Shown here: in pieces, positions 43,166-57,853 of the stretch | Layout: every line of letters starts with the position of its first letter | Numbering within the stretch: the stretch's first letter is position 1 | Translations under genes and position numbers: made by a program | Notes under the pieces: generated by a model | The model's database searches: none | The model's input: only the letters and a program-made list of their open reading frames with translations | Told to the model about the DNA's origin: nothing | Assembly: GCA_008363215.1 (NCBI GenBank) | Contig: RHKP01000002.1 | Span: 124,001 to 188,000, forward strand | Direction: 5' to 3' | DNA from: Cyanobacteria bacterium CYA | GTDB lineage: Bacteria; Planctomycetota; Phycisphaerae; Phycisphaerales; UBA1924 | DNA: 64,000 nucleotides

Positions 43166-44593
<1,428 letters not shown>

Positions 44594-44726: not shown

Positions 44727-45386
44727 TCAGGCGGCGATCGTCGCCTGCGACTGCTCGCCCCACGGCCCGCGTTCGCCGGTGGGCGAGACCCAGCGCAGCC
44801 AGTAGTACGCGGTCTTGCCCCCGTCGGCGGCGGGGAAGTTGAGGACGTATGGCGCGTTGGTATCGACCGCAATGAAGCGCAGTTCGCTCTCGCCGGCCGG
44901 GGGCGTGTCGCCGACCTTGTTCCAGATCTCGACGCCCAGCACGCCCGCGGGCTTGGCCTTGCGGGTGGGCGTGGTTTCGTCGACGAAGCGGAGCGTGTGC
45001 TGCAGGCGGGCCCCGCACTCGATGGTGCAGATGGGCGCGGTGGTCGGCGGGCCGATGGGTCCGGGCTGCTGAGCCACGGTGATCCCGAGCGCCGCCTTCT
45101 CGGCATCGCTCACGACGCTCGACGCCTGCAAGCGGCGCACGAGCGGGCGGATCGCGGCGGTGAGCCCGGCGCGGGCCTCATCCTTGCTCTGCTTGGCGGC
45201 CTGGGCCGCGGCCTTGGCGGCGATGTGCCCGGCGAAGTTGGTGTTGAAGAGGGTCTGGTTGGTGGTGACGGGCGTCATGTCCGCGGCGACCAGGCCGAGC
45301 GCGGCGAGGTTGGCGTTGGCGTAGGTGACGAAGTTCGTGACCCACGCCTGATAGTCGGCATCCGGACCGGGGAGATAGTCGGCCAT
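44727..45386 (-). CDS. Unknown 219-residue protein, intact member of a three-copy family
   Basis: A 219-residue protein in two parts. The N-terminal half (about 1-110) is helical (WVTNFVTYANANLAALG, then an Ala/Lys-rich helix and RPLVRRLQASSVVSDAEKA). The C-terminal half (about 120-219) is beta-rich, Ig- or fibronectin-like, ending in AYYWLRWVSPTGERGPWGEQ. No signal peptide is present. Two decayed relatives lie at 47763-47855 and 49708-50188. Structure-type or host-surface binding roles are possible, but function is unknown. It is convergent with the sigma-54 regulator gene. Confidence 0.75.
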   Translation of the reverse strand: MADYLPGPDADYQAWVTNFVTYANANLAALGLVAADMTPVTTNQTLFNTNFAGHIAAKAAAQAAKQSKDEARAGLTAAIRPLVRRLQASSVVSDAEKAALGITVAQQPGPIGPPTTAPICTIECGARLQHTLRFVDETTPTRKAKPAGVLGVEIWNKVGDTPPAGESELRFIAVDTNAPYVLNFPAADGGKTAYYWLRWVSPTGERGPWGEQSQATIAA

Positions 45387-45716
45387 GTTCTTCTACCTTT
45401 GCTGCTGGATTCGGCGGCCCGCTCAGGGAAACGCCACACCGCTACCCGAGCCGTCGATCGGCGCGCGGGGGGCACTGGATGGCGCATCGGCGGGATCTCG
45501 GGGTGACTTCACGACGGCGCGCACGATCGGCGGCAGATTCCCGGCGCAAACGGCGCTCCCTCATCCTCTGTTTAGAAATGGTGCGCGGATGCCGGGGAGG
45601 GCTTGCAGGCCTCCCCCGGCATCCCCACCCGCTTCGAACGGACGACGCACGAGAGCGGGGGTTGCAGGGGGCGGCAAGCCCCCTGCATCACGCGCCGCAA
45701 GCCAGTCGGCACAGGC
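45387..45716. other. Intergenic region with two palindromes
   Basis: No gene is supported in these 330 nt. Two hairpins are visible: 45589-45600 with 45610-45622 (one bulged base), and a perfect 10-bp stem, 45663-45672 with 45678-45687. The second lies 30 nt after the stop of the minus-strand GHKL ATPase gene and could end its transcript, although no T-run follows. Confidence 0.55.
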
Positions 45717-47540
45717 TCAGACCGCCTGCTCTTTGAGCGAGCCCAATTTTGAACTCAGCCCACGGTTGATGGCATAGTCAACGTGGTACCGCGGCAGGAC
45801 AGCTGCAGTCAGAGCCTCTTCGGACCAGAGTTTCTGCAACTCGGGCAAAGTCCATTGCCCCGTCCGGCGGAGCGCCAGCGTGCCCATAACCGTCTCAATC
45901 AACTGCTGCTCGAACCATTCGCGCGTGACCTGCTCCACGACGGGACGCGCACTGGGAACGTGGCTGAACTTCTTGGCCCAACGATCCACCATGTCCATGA
46001 ACACGCGGAAATCGGCGTTGATCTGAAGAAGATTTTGATCCGGGAGGTAAGAAGCGGCACGATCTTCGAGAAGCGGCGGAATCCGCGTGCCGTCAGCGAC
46101 CGACACCCATTTGACGTTGGGCTCGACCATGCTGTTGACCTCCTCGGCTGTGACGCCGCCGCGGGTCGCGAGGAACAGCGAGTACACGTCGCCCGCGCGA
46201 CCACCTCGCCCGCCACCGCCGCCGCCACCCCCGGAGCCGTTATCGCTCGCCCGCGGCGTGCCGCCCGGGTTCGTCGCGGTGTCGTCGATGGAGTGCTTGC
46301 CGTCCTTCGCTGGACGGTAGCGGCGGAAGTGGAACAAGTCGCGGATGCGCTTGAGACGATCGCGGATTGCGGCACGATGGTCGCCGCCCAGCGACTTCGC
46401 GCTGATCTCCTCTTGGAGTGCTTCGATCTCTTCAGGGAGTTTCTCTCGGAACTCCGCGGCCCATTCCGACCACGGCAACGGCTCACCGTTGTAAATCAGG
46501 TTTGTGCGCGCGATGTTGGCCGTGACCTTCGGCTCCTCCTCTTTCTTGGGCTGAACATAGAGGACAACGCGGTTGCACCCGAAGATGACGCCGAAGCCTT
46601 GGAGGCGGGCCATGCCCGCGCGGGCCGTCACCATTTCGTAGAGTTCGTCCTGGTATAGCGCGGCCACATGGCCGCCGCCTGCAATGTGGCCCGAGTCATC
46701 GTCGATGCCCTCTTTGAGAATCCACCAGTGCGCGTTAGCGGTGGTCAGTTCGACGGTGCCCTTTGCGGCAGCATGGGCGTTGAGCCACGGCTGTTGCCCT
46801 TGGACCTCGCGGAGAAAACTGTGCTTGTCCGACGGCCCCTTTTCCCAGCCTTCGCGGGCGCGGACTGTGATGCCCCTTGGGAAGCAGAAGTACCGCGTGT
46901 TCAGGTAGCGCAGTATCCAGCGGGAGGGCATCGGCGTCCCGGCGGGTGGCTGCATGGTGTTCTGCTTTTCCTTCTCGCCGAGAAGGATGACCATCGTGCC
47001 GTTGTCCTTGATCGGCTCGGGCTTGAGTTCGTCGCCGATGTAGCCCCAGTATTCCGAGCGGCCATCGGGGTGATCCCAGCGCTTCAGCCCGTACTCGGCG
47101 GTCTCCGGGTCGCGCCAAAGGTGAATGATGTACCCGACCCCGTCCTTCCAACTCAGGTAGACCAGCCCCTCCGGGTTCTTTGGCATCGCGGAGATTTTCG
47201 CACCCACGCCGAAGTTCCCTTGCCGGGACTGCTCGTGCATGGAGGACGAAAGTTTGTTGATGTACTCAACCATCTCCTCGCCGGTCATGCCGATGCCGGT
47301 GTCCACGACGGCGAGTTTGTACGCGCCGGTGAGGGCGTGGTGGTGCCACGCGACATCCCAGCGAAGTTCGCCCTCCGATTCGGGCGACTTCTTGATGCTC
47401 TCGATTGCGTTTTGCGTGAGTTCCCGCACGAACTGGAGAGGGGCGCAATCCTCTCCCAACTTTTCCACCATGAAGGTCATGTTGGCGACCGACATGGGGA
47501 GCGTGCGATTGGATGACGGCGCGCTACGACCCTGAGCCAT
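45717..47540 (-). CDS. Hsp90-like (GHKL) ATPase of unknown role
   Basis: A 607-residue protein with an N-terminal Bergerat-fold ATPase: N-box ELTQNAIES (40-48), G1 DTGIGM (80-85) and G2 GNFGVGAK (108-115). This is the HATPase_c_3 type seen in MutL-, MORC- and Hsp90-like proteins rather than kinases. A middle region (to about 400) has beta-rich transducer-like sequence, then an all-Gly stretch (about 437-447) and a helical C-terminus. No kinase His or nuclease motif is visible. AGGAG precedes ATG 47540. Stand-alone GHKL ATPases occur in defence islands, and this one lies in such a region; that role is inferred. Confidence 0.75.
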   Translation of the reverse strand: MAQGRSAPSSNRTLPMSVANMTFMVEKLGEDCAPLQFVRELTQNAIESIKKSPESEGELRWDVAWHHHALTGAYKLAVVDTGIGMTGEEMVEYINKLSSSMHEQSRQGNFGVGAKISAMPKNPEGLVYLSWKDGVGYIIHLWRDPETAEYGLKRWDHPDGRSEYWGYIGDELKPEPIKDNGTMVILLGEKEKQNTMQPPAGTPMPSRWILRYLNTRYFCFPRGITVRAREGWEKGPSDKHSFLREVQGQQPWLNAHAAAKGTVELTTANAHWWILKEGIDDDSGHIAGGGHVAALYQDELYEMVTARAGMARLQGFGVIFGCNRVVLYVQPKKEEEPKVTANIARTNLIYNGEPLPWSEWAAEFREKLPEEIEALQEEISAKSLGGDHRAAIRDRLKRIRDLFHFRRYRPAKDGKHSIDDTATNPGGTPRASDNGSGGGGGGGGRGGRAGDVYSLFLATRGGVTAEEVNSMVEPNVKWVSVADGTRIPPLLEDRAASYLPDQNLLQINADFRVFMDMVDRWAKKFSHVPSARPVVEQVTREWFEQQLIETVMGTLALRRTGQWTLPELQKLWSEEALTAAVLPRYHVDYAINRGLSSKLGSLKEQAV

Positions 47541-47762
47541 GATGTCACTCCTTACCGTGCAGGGCAGGATTACGGCCCCGACATCGGCATGGCGTCGCCC
47601 CGCGGTACCACCGGCAGGTGCGCCCTCGACAATCGAGAGCGGCAGCGGCCAGTCGGCTACCGCGAGGTCAACGGGACAAGTGTACCACCGGGACAGGCAT
47701 CACGCCGACACCGTCGCCCCTGCCATCGTCCGCACCGTCGCCGCACGCACCGCACGATGGAA
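47541..47762. other. Region upstream of the GHKL ATPase gene
   Basis: I see no gene in these 222 nt, which with the two remnants that follow form a stretch of about 570 nt of non-functional DNA. The ATPase promoter is presumably here. Confidence 0.4.
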
Positions 47763-47855
47763 TCACGCGGCGACGGTTGCGGCGGTCACCTCCGACCACG
47801 GCCCCTTCTCCCCGCGCGTGCTCACTCAGCGGAGCATGGAGACAGCGGTCTTCCC
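47763..47855 (-). pseudogene. C-terminal remnant of the 219-residue protein family
   Basis: Read on the minus strand this piece gives KTAVSMLR-stop-VSTRGEKGPWSEV and ends at a stop codon. It matches the end of the decayed copy at 50188 (YMFRWVSTRGEKGPWSEV) more closely than the intact gene at 44727. A TGG to TGA change made the internal stop. It abuts copy 2 of the 209-nt repeat. Confidence 0.75.
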
Positions 47856-48086
47856 GCCGGCGGTTCAACCGCAGCGGGGGGGCCCGGCGCAGCGCCCGCG
47901 GGCGCCTTCGGAGCGGCCTCGCCCCCCCATCGCACGCTCCGCGAGGTCGAACTCGCGTACATCCGCGCCGTGCTGGAGAGCGTGGGCGGCAACAAGACCA
48001 GGGCCGCGGCGATCCTCGGCATCGACCGCAAGTCACTGCGGGAGAAACTCAAGTCGGAGGGTGCTCCCGGAGGCACCCGGGATTGA
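47853..48086 (+). pseudogene. Remnant of a sigma-54 regulator (linker and HTH), repeat copy 2
   Basis: The first 209 nt (47853-48061) repeat 44360-44568 and keep the frame GGSTAAGG... to LREKLKSEG, after which the end differs (GAPGGTRD, stop at 48086). The receiver and AAA+ domains are missing, so no regulator can be made. The only differences from copy 1 are three silent changes. Confidence 0.8.
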
Positions 48087-49707: not shown

Positions 49708-50188
49708 ATCACCAACTTCATCCAGGGCGTTCCCAAGACCACCGACGCCGACCGCGCCACGATCGGCATCACGGTGAAAGACACGGGCTCTTCGCCCGTG
49801 CCACCCCCCGCCACCGCGCCGCGGGTCTCGATCGCGCTCGGGGACCGTCTGACGCACACGCGGTGGATCGTGGACTCCGCCACGCCCCTGCGCCTGGCCC
49901 GTCCCCGGCTGCGAGGTGTGGATGAAACTCGTGGACGATGCGGGCACGCTCCCGCCCGGCGCCGCCGCGCCGCCGCCCGCGCCGGCGGGCGATGGGTCTC
50001 CGATCGGCCCGCCGCCGGGCGACCCTTCCACCTTCACCTACCACGGCCTCGCCACCCGCGCGCACCACCGGGCCGAGTTCCCTCTCTCGGCCCGCGGCAA
50101 GAGCGCGGTCTACATGTTCCGCTGGGTGAGCACCCGCGGGGAGAAGGGGCCGTGGTCGGAGGTCGCAAGTGCGACGGTGGCGGCGTGA
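49708..50188 (+). pseudogene. Frameshifted, 5'-truncated copy of the 219-residue protein family
   Basis: From 49708 the frame reads ITNFIQGVPKTTDADRATIGITV, matching the middle of the intact protein at 44727 (SDAEKAALGITV). After LRLARP near 49905 the homology moves to another frame (GCEVWMKLVDDAG) and then runs to the end (FRWVSTRGEKGPWSEV, stop at 50188). About 100 N-terminal codons are missing, and one frameshift is present. The rest of 49628-50233 holds no gene. Confidence 0.75.
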
Positions 50189-50214
50189 TATCAGCACACC
50201 GGACAGACACCGGC

Positions 50215-50220
50215 TATCAT
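50215..50220 (+). promoter_or_regulatory. Possible -10 element of the membrane protein/TIR cassette
   Basis: TATCAT lies 13 nt before the chosen ATG at 50234; no Shine-Dalgarno sequence is seen and no good -35 is found. Confidence 0.3.
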
Positions 50221-50233
50221 GCGCCGGTGCAGC

Positions 50234-50662
50234 ATGGATGCCGACGAAAAACTTGCCAAGCACGTTGAACTGATCCAAGGCGTCATCAACCGGATGGCGG
50301 GCAACTCCTTCGTGCTGAAAGGGTGGACTGTCACGCTGGTTGCCGGACTGTTCGCGCTCGCCGCGAGCGGCGGCAACTGGATGTACGCCGCGCTCGGGCT
50401 GCTGCCTTCGATTTCGTTCTGGTGGCTCGATGCCTACTACCTTCGGCAAGAGCGCCTATTCCGTAAACTGCACGACGCGGCGCGGAGGGGCGAACTTCAA
50501 GGTGACCTATATTCCATGAACACCGCGAAGTATTCCGAGAGTGTGTCGGGACTGTTCTCCACCGCGTTCTCCAAGAGCGTGCTCGCGCTTCATGGCGTCG
50601 TCGTGGCGGTCGTGGTCGCCGTCACAATCATCCTCTGGAATCACGCAGCGAAAGGACCGTGA
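50234..50662 (+). CDS. Small three-helix membrane protein, partner of the TIR gene
   Basis: A 142-residue protein with hydrophobic segments at about 28-46, 49-69 and 117-135 and a cytoplasmic, charged middle (RQERLFRKLHDAARRGELQ). I have the impression that similar small membrane proteins (SFVLKGWTVTLVA and YYLRQERLF segments) often sit next to DUF1863 TIR proteins, but I cannot verify this here. It has no SLOG, SIR2 or Macro domain, so it is not ThsA. By position it may be the effector that permeabilises the membrane, or an anchor. The start at 50234 is preferred to ATG 50219 because the sequence there fits a short leader. The TIR gene starts 3 nt after its stop. Confidence 0.8.
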   Translation: MDADEKLAKHVELIQGVINRMAGNSFVLKGWTVTLVAGLFALAASGGNWMYAALGLLPSISFWWLDAYYLRQERLFRKLHDAARRGELQGDLYSMNTAKYSESVSGLFSTAFSKSVLALHGVVVAVVVAVTIILWNHAAKGP

Positions 50663-50665
50663 CTC

Positions 50666-51163
50666 ATGGCACGTCGGGTTTTCTACAGCTTCCATTACCA
50701 CCCGGACAACTGGCGGGCGTCGCAGGTGCGGAACATTGGCGCGATCGAGGGAAACCGCCCCGCCACCGACAACGAGTGGGAGAGCATCGTCAAAGCGGGC
50801 GACGACCGGATCAAGCGGTGGATTGCCGACCAAATGGACGGCACGTCCTGCACGGTCGTCCTCATAGGCGCGGAGACGGCGGGCCGGAAGTGGATCAATC
50901 ACGAGATCATCAAGGCATGGAACGACGGAAAGGGCGTGGTCGGGGTCTACGTTCATAACCTGCTCGACCAAAGCGGCCTGCGCACCTCCAAGGGACAAAA
51001 CCCCTTCGACTCGATAAGACTCGGTGACAATGGCCCGCCGCTCTCATCCGTCGTGAAGGCGTATGACCCGTCAGGGTGGGACAGCAAGGACGTTTACGCC
51101 AGCATCTCCAACGGTCTTTCTGGCTGGATCGACGAAGCGGTCAGTATCCGCGCGAATCGTTGA
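50666..51163 (+). CDS. Thoeris ThsB-like TIR domain protein (DUF1863/MTH538 type)
   Basis: A 165-residue single-domain protein. Typical pattern: MARRVFYSFHY at the start, CTVVLIGAETAGRKWINHEI (62-81) with the probable catalytic Glu80, VVGVYVHNL (91-99), and the family's SKGQNPFDSI segment. This is the family of ThsB of Thoeris, which turns NAD into a cyclic ADP-ribose-type signal on phage infection. Here no ThsA follows; the next gene is convergent. The ribosome-binding site lies inside the preceding gene, so translation is coupled with the membrane protein. Catalysis is inferred from the family. Confidence 0.85.
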   Translation: MARRVFYSFHYHPDNWRASQVRNIGAIEGNRPATDNEWESIVKAGDDRIKRWIADQMDGTSCTVVLIGAETAGRKWINHEIIKAWNDGKGVVGVYVHNLLDQSGLRTSKGQNPFDSIRLGDNGPPLSSVVKAYDPSGWDSKDVYASISNGLSGWIDEAVSIRANR

Positions 51164-51229: not shown

Positions 51230-52573
51230 TCAATGCCCGTTCCGTGTAACCACCTCCGCTCGTGCGGGCTTCTTCTTGCCGCCCTTGCCTGTGTGGGCGT
51301 GCACGACGAACTCGTAGAGTTCCTTCTTGCTCGTCCGCTTGCGGATCGTTTCGACCCGCACATCGACGAACCCGGCATCCTCGAACAGGGCGGCGTAGAT
51401 GCCCTCGACCGGGAGCATGGTGTCGTAGAACTTGCTGTTGCCGACGATGTAGTGGCAGCGAGCGCCGGGGGCAAGGACTTGCTTCAAGCCGACGATGTGA
51501 GCCTTGATGTCCTCGAAGTACTTATGAACGTAGCGGCCCAGCAGCGCGTGGCCCTTGCCGATATCGCGCACGATGCGGTCGAAGTGCCGGAAGGGGATCT
51601 CGCCGTGGCCGTTGGGGGTCCAAGTGTTAAGCAGGCTCGTCGCGCAGCCCCACGTGCCGCCGATGGCCTTCCAGTCGAGTTCCCCCGCGGCCCGGCCGTC
51701 GGAGAGGTAGCCGAGCCAGTACATGTAGGGACGGAGCTCGCGGATGTAGGACATCCGGTTGGGGTAGGGCGGCGACGTGATGACAGCCGTGTAACGCGCG
51801 CCGCCGTCGATCAAGACGCTCGGAAGGTCGCGTGAGTCACCCAGGAACACGCGGCCATCGGCGGCGGGCGGCTCGACGCCGAGGCTGTCGGCCACTTCGT
51901 TCGCCGCGGACACGAACGCATCGGCGAGGCGGGCCGCCGCCCGAGCAGGAGTTTCCTCCACCAAGCCCGCATCCTCGTCGCGCTTCTTGAACGACATGGA
52001 TTGGTGCCCGAAGGAGACGTTGGCGCTCTGGATCATCACGCGGCAGAATGCGACGGCGAGCAGGTCGGAAACGCCGGCGGTTCGCTCGCGCGACGGGTTG
52101 CGGACGCCGTCGCACAAGGTCGCGAGTGTGTGCAACGTGGGGGCATCCCACCACTTCTCGATCTGGTGCAGGTCGGGCTTCCACGCCCCGGCGTCGGGGT
52201 CGCGGGCCTTGTCAGCGATGCGTGCGGCGGCGGCACGAACCGCGCGAGCAACGCCGTCATCGAACCGGGTTAGTTTCAGGTTGCCGAGCCAGACCAGGAA
52301 CGGGTTGATGTCCACCGCGTGGCAGCGGATGCCCAGCGAAGCGCAGGCAAGCGGCGTAGTGCCGGTGCCGGAGAAGGGTTCGAGGACAAACTCGTCAGGG
52401 CCGGACTGCCTGAGCAGTTCACGGACCAGGTGGAGCGAGTACGCGGGCGTGAGGCGGAGCCACCCGTGCCGCCCGATCGCGACATTACCCCGGAACGTGA
52501 GGTGGTCGCGTCGTCCAAGACCGATGGGAGGCTTCCCGTTGGTTACAGGATGGCCGAAGAGGTCCGTGTTCAT
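51230..52573 (-). CDS. DNA methyltransferase (N4-cytosine/N6-adenine type)
   Basis: A 447-residue DNA methyltransferase. Motif I is EPFSGTGTTPLACASLG (65-81), followed by CHAVDINPF; the catalytic motif IV is SPPY (about residue 266) in ITSPPYPNRMSYI. The SPPY form and the order FxGxG before SPPY fit N4-cytosine or N6-adenine enzymes of the beta/alpha mixed group. A target-recognition-like insert of about 180 residues lies between the motifs. Its ATG overlaps the stop of the upstream gene by 4 nt, so the two genes are coupled; that gene is probably the matching endonuclease. Confidence 0.88.
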   Translation of the reverse strand: MNTDLFGHPVTNGKPPIGLGRRDHLTFRGNVAIGRHGWLRLTPAYSLHLVRELLRQSGPDEFVLEPFSGTGTTPLACASLGIRCHAVDINPFLVWLGNLKLTRFDDGVARAVRAAAARIADKARDPDAGAWKPDLHQIEKWWDAPTLHTLATLCDGVRNPSRERTAGVSDLLAVAFCRVMIQSANVSFGHQSMSFKKRDEDAGLVEETPARAAARLADAFVSAANEVADSLGVEPPAADGRVFLGDSRDLPSVLIDGGARYTAVITSPPYPNRMSYIRELRPYMYWLGYLSDGRAAGELDWKAIGGTWGCATSLLNTWTPNGHGEIPFRHFDRIVRDIGKGHALLGRYVHKYFEDIKAHIVGLKQVLAPGARCHYIVGNSKFYDTMLPVEGIYAALFEDAGFVDVRVETIRKRTSKKELYEFVVHAHTGKGGKKKPARAEVVTRNGH

Positions 52574-53376
52574 TTCAAGAGCCCCTCGAACACGGCCAGT
52601 GTCTCGGCCTTGATCGCGGCTGAGTTGCGGCGGAAGAACGCCGCAAGGTCGTACCCGAGCACTTCGCGGCAGAAGACGTACGTGGAGTCGGTCGCGGTGC
52701 CGTTCACGGTCCCGCGAAGGATGAGCCAGTGGGCGCGTTGATATCGCTCCGCCAAGTTGTCGGGAATCTGCACCGAGAGGAGCACCATCACCGGCAGGTA
52801 GCGGTGCGCGAAGGCGTTGGCCGCGTTCGACACGTCGGCGTTCTGGCGCTTCGCGTCGTTGCTCTTGTACCCCTGGCGCACCTCGAATACGCACCCCTCA
52901 AGGCCGGCGGCGTCCTCACGTTTCAAGCCAACGTGGTCGGTCGCCTCCGCGAGCCACGCGGACGCGCGCTTGCGGGCTGCCGAGGACGCGATTCTCTCCA
53001 GCGGGATGCGCCCATCAAGCGCGAGCGAACGCGCCTTGGCCCCCTTGGCTTTCACCTTGTAGGACCAGGTTGCATCGGCGGAGGAGAGGCCGAGCGTGTC
53101 TTGCAGGACGTTCTGGAACACCAACTGGCAACTCAGCCCGATCTGCCGATACACCGAGGTCATGCCGCCAGCGGCTTTGTGGGCCGCGTAAACCAGCGGC
53201 GAATCGAGGCCGAACCAGCCGTAGAACTCATCCTCCCTATAGATCTGCTGGAATCGCGCGAGCGTGATTCCATCGCCCTTGCCGTGCCCGAAAGCGGGCT
53301 TGTAGTTGAGACAGACCCGCAGGGCGCTGCGGATCAGGCTCAGGTATTTCTCATCTTGGGGTTCCACTTCGCTCAT
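52570..53376 (-). CDS. Putative restriction endonuclease paired with the methyltransferase
   Basis: A 268-residue protein that I do not recognise firmly. The segment GCVFEVRQGYKSNDAKRQNA (about 165-184) has the strand-then-Glu-x-x-x-x-Lys look of a PD-(D/E)XK core, and the ATGA overlap with the methyltransferase gene is the usual arrangement for type II restriction-modification pairs. The family's acidic residue upstream is not clearly seen. It could instead be a specificity or accessory protein. ATG 53376 begins the conserved-looking part (MSEVEPQDEKYLSLIRSAL). Confidence 0.55.
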   Translation of the reverse strand: MSEVEPQDEKYLSLIRSALRVCLNYKPAFGHGKGDGITLARFQQIYREDEFYGWFGLDSPLVYAAHKAAGGMTSVYRQIGLSCQLVFQNVLQDTLGLSSADATWSYKVKAKGAKARSLALDGRIPLERIASSAARKRASAWLAEATDHVGLKREDAAGLEGCVFEVRQGYKSNDAKRQNADVSNAANAFAHRYLPVMVLLSVQIPDNLAERYQRAHWLILRGTVNGTATDSTYVFCREVLGYDLAAFFRRNSAAIKAETLAVFEGLLK

Positions 53377-53403
53377 GGTACGCCTTGCCCGCACGCTCGC
53401 CGG

Positions 53404-53544
53404 TCATGCCAATACCGTGTCCAGATCGTTCAGCCGATGCTGCCACACCCAGTCGATGCCTTCGGCGGCCTGCGTTCCGAGATAGCCGGGGTCGAACGAT
53501 CCCCCGAGCATGAGCGTGTACGGGACGGACTCGCCATAGGTCAT
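53404..53544 (-). pseudogene. Orphan C-terminal coding fragment
   Basis: An open frame reading MTYGESVPYTLMLGGSFDPG and ending in RLNDLDTVLA has codon use like a real gene. The same frame stays open upstream to about 53740 (THEPLVELIDRGCDIG precedes the ATG) but has no good start codon or ribosome-binding site. It may be the tail of a lost gene or a 46-residue protein. No family is recognised. It lies 28 nt before the putative endonuclease gene. Confidence 0.35.
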
Positions 53545-53804
53545 GCCGATGTCGCAGCCTCTGTCGATCAGTTCAACCAGTGGTTCATGCGTTTCGCGTC
53601 CTGCTCCGGGTTTTCCGCTGCTTCCGCTGGGCCATCGACCCAGTATACGGGAGACGTTTGGGTGTGTCCAACCGGCGGCACGCCGACCCCTCTTCTTCGA
53701 GTACTCAGAGTATCGCGGTGAAATCGCACGTGCGTCCGGCCAATGCGCCGTTCAGCGCCCGCCCAGCGCCGCCGGGTCGAGTACGCGCCGCCGCTGTGGT
53801 GTCT

Positions 53805-54278
53805 TCACCGGCGCGGGCGTGCTTTCCGCGTGTTCGTGTCCAGGAGCGCCTCGAGCAGCACGATCGCGTGGTTCTGCACCTCATCCTTCGCACCGTAGAG
53901 CAGCGTCACCGCGCCGCGGGCCGCGGCGTCCGAACCCTTCCCGCGGCCAGCCCCGGCCTTCGCGCTTGCGCCGGTTTTCCCCCCGCGGCCGGTGTGCGCC
54001 CGCACGATCGCGCGGAGGTCGGCCAGCGCGGGGTTGGCGGGGTCGGCCAGTTCGGCGCGGTACCGGCGGCGAAACTCAGCCCAGCGTGTGAGGTCACGGT
54101 GGTACCACTGCCGCAGTTCCGGCGAGGGGGCGGCCTCCTTCATCCACAGGTCCACGCCCGCCCGCGCCTTGCTCAGCCCGCGCGGCCAGAGGCGGTCTAC
54201 CAGCACGCGGAACCCGTCCTCGGGCGCCGGGTCGTCGTACACACGCTTGAGTCGGACCTTGTCGCGTGCAGCACTCAC
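53805..54278 (-). CDS. DUF488 family protein (YeaO-like)
   Basis: A 157-residue protein of the DUF488 family, typified by RVLVDRLWPRGLSK and DLWMKEAAPSPELRQWYH. Ala/Gly/Lys-rich sequence interrupts the C-terminal part (GKTGASAKAGAGRGKGSD), an insertion compared with usual members (about 120). Biochemical function of the family is unknown; SAM or nucleic-acid links have been proposed only by context. Its ATG overlaps the stop of the AhpD-like gene by 4 nt. Confidence 0.85.
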   Translation of the reverse strand: MSAARDKVRLKRVYDDPAPEDGFRVLVDRLWPRGLSKARAGVDLWMKEAAPSPELRQWYHRDLTRWAEFRRRYRAELADPANPALADLRAIVRAHTGRGGKTGASAKAGAGRGKGSDAAARGAVTLLYGAKDEVQNHAIVLLEALLDTNTRKARPRR

Positions 54279-54649
54279 GATTCCTTCTCCGGGTTGTGCG
54301 CTTGGCGCTGGGCAGCGTTCCCCGCCTCACTGATCGTATCCAGCATCACGCTTGAGTGCGCGTACGCCCCACCCGCCCGCATCTCCGTCGCGACCCACGC
54401 CGCCTCCATCAACTGCGCGGGAGTCACGCCCGCCCGCAGCGCGGCCTTGGTGTGCGAGCGGATGCACCATTGACACTGCGTCGCGTGCGCTACCGCGACG
54501 GCGATGATCTGCTTGGTCCGGTGGTCGAGCGCGCCATCGGCGAAGACCTTGCCCTGGAAGGCCGCGAACGCCGCGGAGGTGTCGGGCGCGAGTTCCCGCC
54601 GCTGCGCGGCCAGCGCCTTGAGCACCTGTGGGTCGGTCAGATCAGACAT
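54275..54649 (-). CDS. Carboxymuconolactone decarboxylase/AhpD-like protein
   Basis: A 124-residue protein of the CMD/AhpD family. The CxxC redox motif is in ATQCQWCIRSHTKAALRAG, with the conserved His after it, as in alkylhydroperoxidase AhpD; peroxide defence is likely. AGGAGG lies just before ATG 54649. It forms an overlapping pair with the DUF488 gene. Nearby genes do not include AhpC. Confidence 0.88.
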   Translation of the reverse strand: MSDLTDPQVLKALAAQRRELAPDTSAAFAAFQGKVFADGALDHRTKQIIAVAVAHATQCQWCIRSHTKAALRAGVTPAQLMEAAWVATEMRAGGAYAHSSVMLDTISEAGNAAQRQAHNPEKES

Positions 54650-55130
54650 GGTGAGCCTCCTTTTGTACGTCTGCGGTGTGCGACCGCGCAAACCGCATCG
54701 TACGGCCACCGAGGCGGCGTGGCGTGAATCATGCGGATACGTCGGGGAAGGCCGCTCGTCTGAACCGAACACCGCCGCGGCCGGGGCGAGTCACCGCCCA
54801 TCGCGCTCGGCGGGCACACGTTGGAACGCCCAACACGCGAGCGGCACCCGCGGGGACGCCGTCTGCGGGAGTGTGCGGGTCGTACGGACGACCGGCCATG
54901 TCGTGTGGCCGACCGCGCGAGCGCCTTGTACCGCCGTCCGCGAGGACCGGCCACTTGAGCCGCCCCCCCGCGGCCGGACTGTCCGATCGGACGGGCGGGT
55001 CGGACGGTCGGACGAGTGAGTTGGACGCTTGAGTTGGACGGTCGGACGGATGGGCCGGACGCCCGCGCGCCCCGCCGGGGCGGGATGTGCCGATTCCGAG
55101 GCGGGAACGTCACGCTCGATGGTTTCGGCG
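54650..55130. other. Non-coding GC-rich region with a GGAC-periodic tract
   Basis: No gene is supported in this stretch. Its right half carries a degenerate tandem repeat (54976-55060), annotated separately. The upstream part shows many short GACCGGCC-type segments but no clear structure. Confidence 0.5.
54976..55060 (+). repeat. Degenerate 34-nt tandem repeat of GGAC boxes
   Basis: GGAC starts at 54976, 54989, 55002, 55010, 55023, 55036, 55044 and 55057. The spacings are 13, 13, 8, 13, 13, 8 and 13, so the pattern repeats every 34 nt. The 13-nt intervals share little besides GGAC and a GGTC at the end of each unit. 34 is not a multiple of three, so coding repeats are not the cause. Confidence 0.65.
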
Positions 55131-55159
55131 GGGGGTGCCGGGGGGCGGCAGCCCCCGGC
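55131..55159 (-). repeat. 29-nt GC-rich palindromic element, copy B
   Basis: This is the exact reverse complement of copy A (51194-51222). It directly abuts the stop codon of the AAA ATPase gene (55160-55162), so it would form the first hairpin of that transcript's 3' end. Confidence 0.85.
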
Positions 55160-57853
55160 CTAGGCGTGCGGCGCAGGGGCGGGTGCTGGCTTGATCTCGG
55201 GCATCGCAGTTCCTCCGCTAGCCGACCGCGCGGTCCTGACCGCTTCAACGGTGTCCTCCAGAACCTTGATCCAACCCTTCAACTTCTCGGGCGTCGGAAC
55301 GTTGACCGGCCCGCTCAGCGGAGTGGCGTGGCCCTCGATGATGTTTGAGCACTCTTTCCAGATCGCGTGGACGGCCTTCCATTGATCGACGGTCACAGCG
55401 GCGAGGCTTGGGGTGTTCTTCACGTCGATCCGGCTGTCGTGGCGTTTGATGACGCCGTTGAGCATGTGCTGCTCGATAATCCGCTCGCACGCCCCGCGGA
55501 TGCGGCCAACCACAGGCATCGCCGCTTCCCGGTACTCCGACTCCCCTTTGGTCTTGTAGACACTGTCCGCGTGCCCGATTTGCTCATTGAGCGTCTTCAT
55601 CTGCTCCTTGAACGACTGCGCATCCCAGACGAGACCAGGCAGCACCCGGCCAGGCTTGCCAGCGAGCCATTCGATGTGTTGGTAGTAGATGTTTCCGCTT
55701 GCCGAGCGAGCGGCAGAGTCGAGATCGCAGACGAACGCGAGATCGTGGGTAAACACAACCACCTGCCGGTGGGAAGCTTCCTTGACCAGACGGGCCGCGA
55801 TGGCATCGCGGCGCTTGTGGTCCAGTGAGGAGACCGGATCATCAAACACCAAGGCCGACTTGTGCGATGCCTGCGAGAGTTCGGCAAAGAACGCGGCCAG
55901 AGCGATGCATCGATGCTCGCCTTCGCTGGCGATGTCCTCCACGTTCGCAGTCGCCGCGCCGTCCACGACTACCGCGAACTGGCTCTCGCCCTTCGCCACT
56001 CGAACCGCCGACAGCGACACTGGAAGCGTCTTGAGCCCGAGGGCATCGCGTTCGCGTGCGAACGCCTTGCAGAACGCTTCGGTGACGTGGAGCTTGTCAA
56101 GTTCTTTGGCTTTGTCGGACACGGGACGGCTGGCGCAGTCCGCTTGCACCTTCTTCAAGATCGCCGCATGGGCGTGGCGCGCGATCTGGGCTTTGACTTC
56201 ATCCTTCTTGCCCGCGAGCCACTTTTTGTCGGTAAGTTCATCGCGTTCGGTAGCCAACGCTTTCGCCTTCTCGGGGTCAGCGGCGGCGAGTTCGTCCTTC
56301 GCTCTCTTGTCGAGCTTGTCGGCGAGCGTCAACAGGTCGGCGCACGGCGACTTGGGCAACGCGGGAGCGTCTGTCCAGGCTCCGACTTTCAGGCAAGTTT
56401 GAGCGTGGGCGATACGGACATCGACCGCTTTGGCGAAAGCCTCAACTATGGCGAATGTCCCGGCGGCTTCGCGGTCAAGATCGGCCTTGATTCCCGCCGC
56501 TTCGGTCCCGATCACGCGGAGTGAGTCCACGCCCGGCCTCAACGCCGTGACTTTGGCCTTCGCCGCGTCGGCCTGCTTGCGGGTTTCGTTGGCGACAAAC
56601 TTGTTGAAGCGGGCGTAGCGGTCGATCGCATCGGCCTGCAATGGCTGCTGGCACAGGACACACTTCGCGTCCGCCTCGGTGACGGGGAACGTCTTGCCTG
56701 GGTATGCGTCTGCGACCGAGTACGCCTTGGCCGCGTCCCAGAGTCTCCGCCACACGTCATTGCAACTGCCGGGAAGGTCCGAATCTCTTAGCTCCGGCCC
56801 GGCGGCGGCATTGGCCGCCTTCGCCGTTGTCTCCGCCTCCTTAATCGCCTCGCCAAGTGCCTGCATCGCCGTGTCGTCCACGGACGTGACGCGGTTCTTC
56901 GCGGTCTCTGCGAATGTGCGGATGCGTTTGGCGGCGGCGGTCGTGTCAGCGGCTTTGAGTTTCGGATCGGTGCTGAGCGTGGCGATGATCTCTGCTAAGC
57001 GCTTCTCGTCGGCATCCGAAAACACAGCCGCCGCGTCGATCGTTTCTGGCTTCGTCGCTGCCCCGAGCGCGTTGATGACTTTGCCAACCGCTGTTGACGC
57101 GCTGTACTTCCAGCCTTGAGCGGTCTTGGTGTTCTCGGCGAACGTCGCGTCGATCTCCTTCTTCAACTCGGCTCCAAGCGTATCGCACGCCTTCGCGAGC
57201 TCCGGCAGCACATCCAAACCGCGTGGCTTGAAGCACGCGGGGCCATCCTCGCCGACGTGGACGCGGGCACTGAAGGAGTCAAACACGAAGATGTTGGCCA
57301 AGCGCGGATCTGACGGCACTCCGTCCTGCCAATCGAGCTGGAAGTCGGCGGTGCCAACGCGGAAGGTGATGCTGGCCTTCGCCGGACCAGTCGCAGCCGG
57401 GGCGAAGGCGTCGGGCTTGATCTCCTGAGGCATCCCGCGTGCTCGGCACACCTTCTTGAGTATGCGCGCGTATCCCGACTTGCCCGCCCCGTTCTCGCCG
57501 TAGATGACCGTGAGGCCCGGCGCGGGACCGAAGTCGATCTCCTGATCGTTTGGCAGCCGCCCGACGTTCTGTAGACCAGAGAGTTTGGACAGGCTGACCG
57601 ACGCGGCACCGCCCGCGCCGCCGGGGATGTGCTCCGCAGCCAGCGGTATCGCCGCCGGGGCGTTGCCCGTCGCTGGCAACAGGCCGTGCTTGGCACGGCA
57701 GATTGCCAAGAGTTCCTGTAGAGCGTCGGCACTCAGTGGCCCCGACCTGATGACTCTGCGAAGAGCGTCACGCTGCCAGTCGGGCCATACCATCGACCAC
57801 ATAAGAATCGAATGGTGCGGTGAATGCGGGGTCGCGTGAGAGGTGTCTGGCAC
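55160..57853 (-). CDS. SMC-like AAA ATPase with central CxxC (AAA_13-type)
   Basis: An 897-residue ABC-class ATPase. The N-terminal WPDWQRDALRR is typical of a family of large stand-alone ATPases. Walker A is GENGAGKS (119-126), the signature is SEGEHRCIALAAF, Walker B is SALVFDDPVSSLD (about 665-680) and the switch is VVVFTHD. Between them lie long helices with Cys398-x-x-Cys401 (CVLC), resembling the Rad50 zinc hook of RloC. The C-terminal 200 residues differ from the RloC anticodon-nuclease domain. Such proteins are often linked to restriction loci. Action on DNA ends or tRNA is possible but not shown. Confidence 0.8.
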   Translation of the reverse strand: MPDTSHATPHSPHHSILMWSMVWPDWQRDALRRVIRSGPLSADALQELLAICRAKHGLLPATGNAPAAIPLAAEHIPGGAGGAASVSLSKLSGLQNVGRLPNDQEIDFGPAPGLTVIYGENGAGKSGYARILKKVCRARGMPQEIKPDAFAPAATGPAKASITFRVGTADFQLDWQDGVPSDPRLANIFVFDSFSARVHVGEDGPACFKPRGLDVLPELAKACDTLGAELKKEIDATFAENTKTAQGWKYSASTAVGKVINALGAATKPETIDAAAVFSDADEKRLAEIIATLSTDPKLKAADTTAAAKRIRTFAETAKNRVTSVDDTAMQALGEAIKEAETTAKAANAAAGPELRDSDLPGSCNDVWRRLWDAAKAYSVADAYPGKTFPVTEADAKCVLCQQPLQADAIDRYARFNKFVANETRKQADAAKAKVTALRPGVDSLRVIGTEAAGIKADLDREAAGTFAIVEAFAKAVDVRIAHAQTCLKVGAWTDAPALPKSPCADLLTLADKLDKRAKDELAAADPEKAKALATERDELTDKKWLAGKKDEVKAQIARHAHAAILKKVQADCASRPVSDKAKELDKLHVTEAFCKAFARERDALGLKTLPVSLSAVRVAKGESQFAVVVDGAATANVEDIASEGEHRCIALAAFFAELSQASHKSALVFDDPVSSLDHKRRDAIAARLVKEASHRQVVVFTHDLAFVCDLDSAARSASGNIYYQHIEWLAGKPGRVLPGLVWDAQSFKEQMKTLNEQIGHADSVYKTKGESEYREAAMPVVGRIRGACERIIEQHMLNGVIKRHDSRIDVKNTPSLAAVTVDQWKAVHAIWKECSNIIEGHATPLSGPVNVPTPEKLKGWIKVLEDTVEAVRTARSASGGTAMPEIKPAPAPAPHA

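Follow-up and report, generated by a model that had tools for sequence, protein, structure and literature searches.

In Thoeris a TIR protein makes a cyclic ADP-ribose (2'cADPR or 3'cADPR) or His-ADPR signal, and the known Thoeris effectors sense their signal via SLOG, macro or caspase-linked domains. In type I Thoeris the effector ThsA joins SIR2 to a SLOG (STALD) domain, and in type II ThsA consists of a transmembrane segment and a nucleotide-binding macro domain. The 64,000-nucleotide stretch of contig RHKP01000002.1 analyzed here (the window), from a planctomycete genome of the Phycisphaerales, carries a gene for a TIR protein of the ThsB family directly behind a gene for a 142-residue membrane protein, termed M50A, with neither type of ThsA at the locus. 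Judged from the genomic evidence, M50A is probably the membrane effector of TIR-type nucleotide signals: the TIR protein would make the signal and M50A would breach the membrane of the infected cell.

Several described systems come close to this arrangement. In PADLOC the pair is a member of PDC-M50 (models PDLC04684-04688), since both proteins match and are adjacent; PDC-M50 is listed there as a phage-defence candidate, A being paired with TIR, without description or function. In type II Thoeris, too, a membrane effector partners the TIR enzyme, and membrane disruption has been proposed for it in the available text of PMC11204291 and of the review PMC12948488. Likewise, the TIR + two-transmembrane (SLATT) modules of firmicute phages place a TIR gene next to a small multi-helix membrane protein, predicted in the accessible part of Iyer et al. 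2022 (PMC9503650) to be an effector of membrane permeability regulated by ADP-ribose derivatives. Finally, the two-gene logic of a synthase and a membrane effector is shared by CBASS Cap15 and Panoptes OptE (PMC12657218, accessible part). An earlier note on this DNA had suggested that the membrane protein could be the effector, which would make the pair a distinct Thoeris-like type. The ThsA-less pair holds, while the type is not so new, as PADLOC already lists PDC-M50A/B and the SLATT module was described in 2022 (PMC9503650). Already known are accordingly the pair as PDC-M50, TIR with the transmembrane-macro ThsA, and TIR with a SLATT protein; new, as far as we have seen, are a HIT-domain gene and fusion and two kinds of exchange: of the enzyme class next to one membrane family, and of M50A for SIR2-ThsA next to one TIR family.

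The two-gene cassette described in the note is real, both reading frames being present, 3 bases apart. Its features are:

50234..50662, plus strand: M50A membrane protein gene, 142 residues, likely effector
50261..50326, plus strand: M50A helix-1 motif H..Q....R...NS...KGW (residues 10-31), running from the predicted cytosolic side into the first membrane helix
50417..50464, plus strand: M50A helix-2 motif FW.LD.Y.L.QER..R (residues 62-77), from the aligned rows
50650..50656, plus strand: Shine-Dalgarno-like GAAAGGA of the TIR gene within the 3' end of the M50A gene, read from the sequence
50666..51163, plus strand: TIR gene (ThsB-type; by PADLOC also PDC-M50B), 165 residues, predicted signal-making enzyme
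50903..50905, plus strand: codon GAG of Glu80, the predicted catalytic glutamate of TIR, which in the alignment falls on the E of ThsB 6lhy/9b7d

The stop codon of the M50A gene (TGA, 50660-50662) is followed by CTC and then by the ATG of the TIR gene, and the Shine-Dalgarno-like site inside the M50A end suggests translational coupling of the two genes. An alternative ATG at 50219 would lengthen M50A to 147 residues. The gene downstream of TIR (51230-52894) lies on the minus strand, as had been stated.

The TIR protein shows the hallmarks FYSFHY, RKWINHEI and NPFDSI named in the note and matches Pfam ThsB_TIR (PF08937, E 7.6e-29, above cut-off). Among the PADLOC models ThsB (PDLC00433, E 1.1e-68) ranks first for it, ahead of PDC-M50B (E 1.7e-62); the closest solved structures are 8wcf (E 2.7e-38) and ThsB 9b7d/6lhy (~1e-19). 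Its TIR domain thus belongs to the ThsB family and has the predicted catalytic residue, Glu80, which is a glutamate in 77 of 77 aligned TIRs adjoining M50A.

M50A matches PDC-M50A of PADLOC (E 8e-44) as well as PHROG 19896 (E 8.5e-36), a phage family of unknown function, and profile searches yielded neither a Pfam family nor an NCBIfam family above cut-off; no PDB match was obtained by sequence. Unlike the ThsA of type I Thoeris, the coupled protein of the window spans three helices in all and lacks SIR2, SLOG and macro domains, and it differs from the type II ThsA by the same lack of a macro or any other Pfam domain. In contrast to the S-2TM-beta effectors (Cap15, OptE), which carry a soluble beta-barrel after two transmembrane helices, the AlphaFold2 model of M50A is all helix and contains no strand. 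With E-values up to 1 allowed, none of the SLATT/DUF4231 models matched any of the 55 M50A sequences compared (first 25 of the 26 families listed), and a profile comparison with DUF4231, built on four DUF4231 proteins only, gave a probability of 0.6% vs 0.4% for a reversed control; the SLATT_5 search gave no proteins for such a comparison. SLATT structures were absent from the fold-search results, an absence that carries little weight against a shared fold. M50A furthermore differs by its third membrane helix and, at the level of profiles, is without detectable SLATT relationship.

Adjacency and the changing enzyme partner

In total 616 M50A homologues were found, of which 120 were listed. A genome scan confirmed 553 places, and the best 80 of these 553 were kept as genome loci; further matches came from a viral scan (16), a plasmid collection (136 records) and a phage collection (3). 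The pair recurs in bacteria, archaea, plasmids (conjugative ones included) and phages. Across the 80 genome loci 22 phyla are named, five rows being given only as 'Bacteria' and one, an Altiarchaeales archaeon, being unplaced. On E. coli plasmids the pair is present as well (L100, 2175-3461), in 10 of 5426 genomes.

For the adjacency analysis the window copies and two duplicate viral loci were dropped, leaving 106 loci with 108 M50A open reading frames (ORFs), two each in L048 (a broken gene) and L105. A gene counted as a partner if it belonged to a TIR-superclass seed family, shared the strand of the M50A ORF and lay no more than 400 base pairs (bp) from it. Such a partner adjoins 91 of the 108 ORFs (89 of 106 by distinct protein), with 65/81 in genome loci, 14/14 in viral loci and 12/13 in the remaining loci, and in 83 of the 91 pairs the two genes overlap or stand no more than 40 bp apart. 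The adjacency across genomes that the note had proposed to check is evidently conserved. In the 80 genome loci, 59 ORFs with the ThsB profile are centred within 1 kilobase (kb) of M50A vs 7 in the remaining 784 kb, and the resulting densities (0.31 vs 0.009 per kb) argue that the neighbourhood is not due to chance. When 294 genomes were drawn evenly from the window's phylum, 6 contained M50A, with a PF08937 TIR beside it in 5; two of these M50A loci repeat L023 and L028.

The enzyme beside M50A changes class. Assigned by best seed family, the 91 partners comprise 61 ThsB, 14 of a class of roughly 270-residue TIR proteins (TIR270) and 8 other TIR_2 proteins, followed by rarer classes: a long TIR protein followed by an ATPase (3), CAP12-type TIR (2), DUF4062 (1), SLOG cluster 3 (1) and a deoxyribosyltransferase-like protein (1). 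The class seeds besides ThsB were picked from the M50A neighbours themselves and then named by Pfam, with E-values of 4.8e-29 and 6.4e-22 for CAP12, 1.7e-17 for DUF4062 (adjoining M50A in L022), 2e-49 for SLOG and 3.8e-20 for Nuc_deoxyri_tr2. The row of M50A, long TIR protein and ATPase-like gene was seen in three Chlorobiaceae (L039, L046, L054). The partners other than plain TIR go beyond the PDC-M50 listing, as does HIT.

A tree of 115 M50A rows requires at least 19 changes of partner class, or 15 if ThsB is set against the rest, and the changes forced by firmly supported branches number about 3 for ThsB, 3 for TIR270 and 2 for TIR_2. We do not claim nineteen partner swaps, because the M50A tree has few firm branches and six loci contain two partner classes at once; what we retain is several swaps. 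According to the accessible text of PMC9503650, TIR-DrHyd-SLOG forms one Rossmannoid class, whose characterized active members cleave or transfer N-glycosidic bonds of nucleotides, and all partner classes of M50A named by Pfam fall within it. Swapped partners next to an M50A whose residues stay the same are what one would expect if an effector read one kind of signal common to all of them.

The same data bear on a toxin-antitoxin reading, in which M50A is a membrane toxin checked by TIR (or the reverse) and infection upsets the balance. Two small genes that overlap or nearly touch and move on plasmids and phages would suit such a pair, but the invariance of the TIR glutamate in 77 of 77 sequences speaks for an enzyme rather than a mere binding partner, the partner class changes, and orphan M50A genes exist; we consider this reading improbable.

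ThsA and the relatives of the TIR protein

Searches of the window's genome (44 contigs, 94.9% complete) with SIR2_2, STALD and ThsA_Macro gave 0 matches, where SIR2_2 matched in 2 of 14 control genomes, STALD matched in 0 of 14, yet finds ThsA in two other genomes, and ThsA_Macro was used without a positive control. Among 50 M50A-carrying genomes, whose completeness is unstated, STALD exceeded the cut-off in two, both times within the M50A operon (L072, L079); in L079 the row reads TIR, SIR2-ThsA, M50A, TIR. The genome of L034 holds a STALD match below cut-off with two stops. The lack of ThsA reported in the note was hence borne out for the locus, no ThsA was found in the searched genome, and in the 50 related genomes ThsA exceeded the cut-off nowhere outside the M50A operon. 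A standard type I or II Thoeris system with its ThsA elsewhere in the genome and M50A as an accessory could draw on the assignment of the TIR protein to ThsB by both Pfam and PADLOC and on the operon that M50A shares with SIR2-ThsA in the two loci mentioned; the empty searches of the window's genome and the confinement of STALD to the M50A operon argue against it, and we regard it as highly improbable.

Close relatives of the window's TIR protein do stand beside SIR2-STALD ThsA, a likeness to type I Thoeris. Fifteen plasmid loci were opened for TIR relatives, some of them chosen for a known M50A match, so that the proportions are biased: M50A lies within 1 kb in seven (L114, L139, L140, L142-L145), a SIR2 protein is present in three (L115, L116, L146), and in three (L113, L117, L118) the TIR relative has no M50A, SIR2 or phospholipase nearby. 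The TIRs beside SIR2-ThsA in these three plasmids are 45-56% identical to the window TIR, and in one plasmid (L115), the only one in which the ThsA make-up was confirmed, the SIR2 protein contains SIR2_2 and STALD. An M50A match lies within 1 kb of at least 14 of the 60 TIR records listed (of 75). Since relatives of the window TIR adjoin SIR2-ThsA instead, M50A occupies the slot of ThsA. In the remaining two plasmid loci (L112, L147), which hold further TIR genes, the TIR relatives stand beside a patatin-like phospholipase that the annotation calls a CBASS effector, possibly another effector swap.

M50A residues, HIT genes and the proposed mechanism

The coupled 142-residue protein has no Pfam domain and, as the note had stated, three helices, all predicted to be long. 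The AlphaFold2 model, with a predicted local distance difference test score (pLDDT) of 94.3 and a predicted template modelling score (pTM) of 0.83, places them at residues 3-46, 56-85 and 114-139, and hydrophobic stretches span 25-49, 51-65 and 110-141. By the positive-inside rule K/R-rich segments of membrane proteins face the cytosol. Residues 71-86 contain six K/R vs two D/E, which would place this segment, together with the N-terminal half of helix 1, in the cytosol; in the model two long helices would cross the membrane and extend into the cytosol.

In the alignment of 115 M50A rows helix 1 is conserved at H10 (102/114), Q15 (110/114), R20 (113/114), N24 (104/115), S25 (110/115), K29 (113/115) and W31 (115/115), and helix 2 at F62 (115/115), D66 (115/115), E73 (114/115) and R77 (113/115), which leaves R20, K29, W31, F62, D66, E73 and R77 near-invariant (113 or more of the 114 or 115 rows). 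Five charged residues so conserved near or below the membrane exceed the needs of a plain anchor, which points to a ligand pocket or gate. In the predicted structure R20, K29, D66, E73 and R77 may, with H10, Q15 and N24, surround a pocket that lies below the membrane and serves signal binding or gating.

A HIT-domain gene was found beside the pair in nine loci, three of the 80 genome loci (L058, L069, L074) and six plasmids (L139-L144), all nine with the HxHxH motif; some of the plasmid loci were opened because their annotation named HIT. In L142 a 340-residue ORF combines HIT at its start (PF01230, E 1.2e-20) with the M50A family at residues 153-247, and two more plasmid M50A matches bear the HIT name in their annotation. 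None of the papers listed mentions a HIT domain. As hydrolases or transferases, HIT proteins work on nucleotide phosphates, and the HIT genes and the HIT-M50A fusion fit a nucleotide signal. The gene neighbourhood suggests that the HIT gene serves as an off-switch for TIR signals; to our knowledge a host-side off-switch of this kind has rarely been described. Both the HIT genes and the change of partner class had been missed in the note.

Taken together, a course of events may be proposed in which infection would activate the TIR protein, which would then make a small nucleotide signal from NAD+. M50A would bind this signal and cluster or open, and the cell would lose its membrane integrity ahead of phage release, that is, by abortive infection. 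Where present, the HIT enzyme would trim or remove the signal. The note's suggestion that M50A is the effector thus appears as the best reading of the genomic evidence, whereas we infer the biochemical steps. If it is right, some 140 residues would suffice for both sensing and killing, making M50A about the smallest receptor of this kind; occurring in 22 named phyla (one sample of 80 loci), in archaea and on conjugative plasmids and phages, it would then count as a common output of TIR immunity. More tentatively, and with considerable doubt, M50A could be a general membrane output port for the nucleotide immune signals of TIR, DUF4062, SLOG and deoxyribosyltransferase enzymes that has no separate ligand-binding domain, replaces ThsA and is reset by HIT hydrolases degrading the signal; the pair would then be a separate Thoeris-like type whose ligand-gated membrane effector is minimal.

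M50A might also be a sensor or membrane anchor, the bound TIR protein being the killer that a membrane- or capsid-related change sets free to destroy NAD+. The TIR protein SpbK acts as a direct NADase, as does the TIR-like Swarozyc (accessible text of PMC13174449), and the invariant TIR glutamate and the strict 1:1 neighbourhood would fit an M50A-TIR complex just as well. On the other hand, partners of several folds would all need to bind M50A, the HIT genes and the HIT fusion indicate a nucleotide, and relatives of the TIR adjoin SIR2-ThsA. We know of no SLOG or deoxyribosyltransferase-like partner that is a NAD-depleting toxin. The complex prediction proposed in the note gave no confident docking: the joined 309-residue pair model reached a pTM of 0.57 vs 0.83 for M50A alone, the halves being confident; the test is weak, as only 12 of its 35 rows were paired and the interface was not scored. 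We hold this sensor or anchor role to be unlikely, and clearly less so than the toxin-antitoxin arrangement.

Several observations weigh against M50A as the effector of a TIR-type signal. Firstly, where ThsA has its SLOG or macro domain, no ligand-binding domain is recognised in M50A, and structure searches gave no informative match for its fold. Secondly, the assignment of some partners is soft: for the TIR270 proteins the match to Pfam TIR_2 is weak (E from 3.6e-6 to 0.03) and in several falls below cut-off, the partner in L094 has no Pfam match, and the partner tree is built on 136 columns with few firm branches. Thirdly, 16 of the 108 M50A ORFs have no partner on the same strand, after addition of L029, where a TIR_2 gene 95 bp downstream of M50A had been missed by the automated count of 91. 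Six of these 16 are accounted for by contig ends (L065, L078, L082), the broken gene L048 (two ORFs) and a masked stretch (L108), and in L059, L069 and L074 a TIR or HIT gene lies nearby on the opposite strand; seven loci (L009, L032, L062, L067, L068, L070, L076) look orphaned. Finally, DUF4062 proteins (Swarozyc) are direct NADases depleting NAD+ (PMC13174449, accessible text), so that the partner of M50A may itself be the killer. One M50A gene, that of L022, indeed adjoins a DUF4062 protein; the Swarozyc account differs in describing direct NAD+ depletion, and its available text does not contain the words membrane or transmembrane.

Carriage and surroundings of the pair

The defence-system detector suggested in the note, here PADLOC, assigns the pair to PDC-M50 and marks a defence island adjoining it (51230-57853, minus strand). 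The type II restriction-modification genes and the PDC-S06 gene of this island, together with plasmid and phage carriage of the pair, are the only defence context of the locus:

51230-52894, minus strand: type II methyltransferase-like gene (PADLOC)
52570-53394, minus strand: restriction enzyme gene (PADLOC REase_II, E 1.9e-72)
55160-57853, minus strand: AAA gene, candidate PDC-S06 (PADLOC, E 3.2e-177)

Upstream of the pair a 209-base direct repeat (99%) occurs at 44360-44568 and 47853-48061 of the window. The 3' end of an NtrC-like regulator gene is thereby present twice, on either side of a HATPase (Hsp90-like) gene at 45717-47540, which looks like the footprint of an insertion. A short fibronectin-like gene lies in pieces around the island (44731-45511, 47762-47861 and 50090-50189). 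Among the loci compared (L003, L004, L005), L004 and L005 contain DNA homologous to these pieces directly upstream of the M50 pair, and the region of the fibronectin-like gene is possibly a favoured insertion site.

With respect to mobile carriage, the record of a tailless Vibrio phage (Vinavirales, 14 kb) holds a TIR gene and M50A near its left end (L102, 1347-2635), and two further records of tailless Vibrio phage type are listed with M50A. On an enterobacterial IncF plasmid (L148) the M50A-TIR pair is flanked by two IS26 copies, which may explain its spread on plasmids. In a Vibrio chagasii plasmid (L105) a single stretch carries two M50A genes together with three genes of TIR type.
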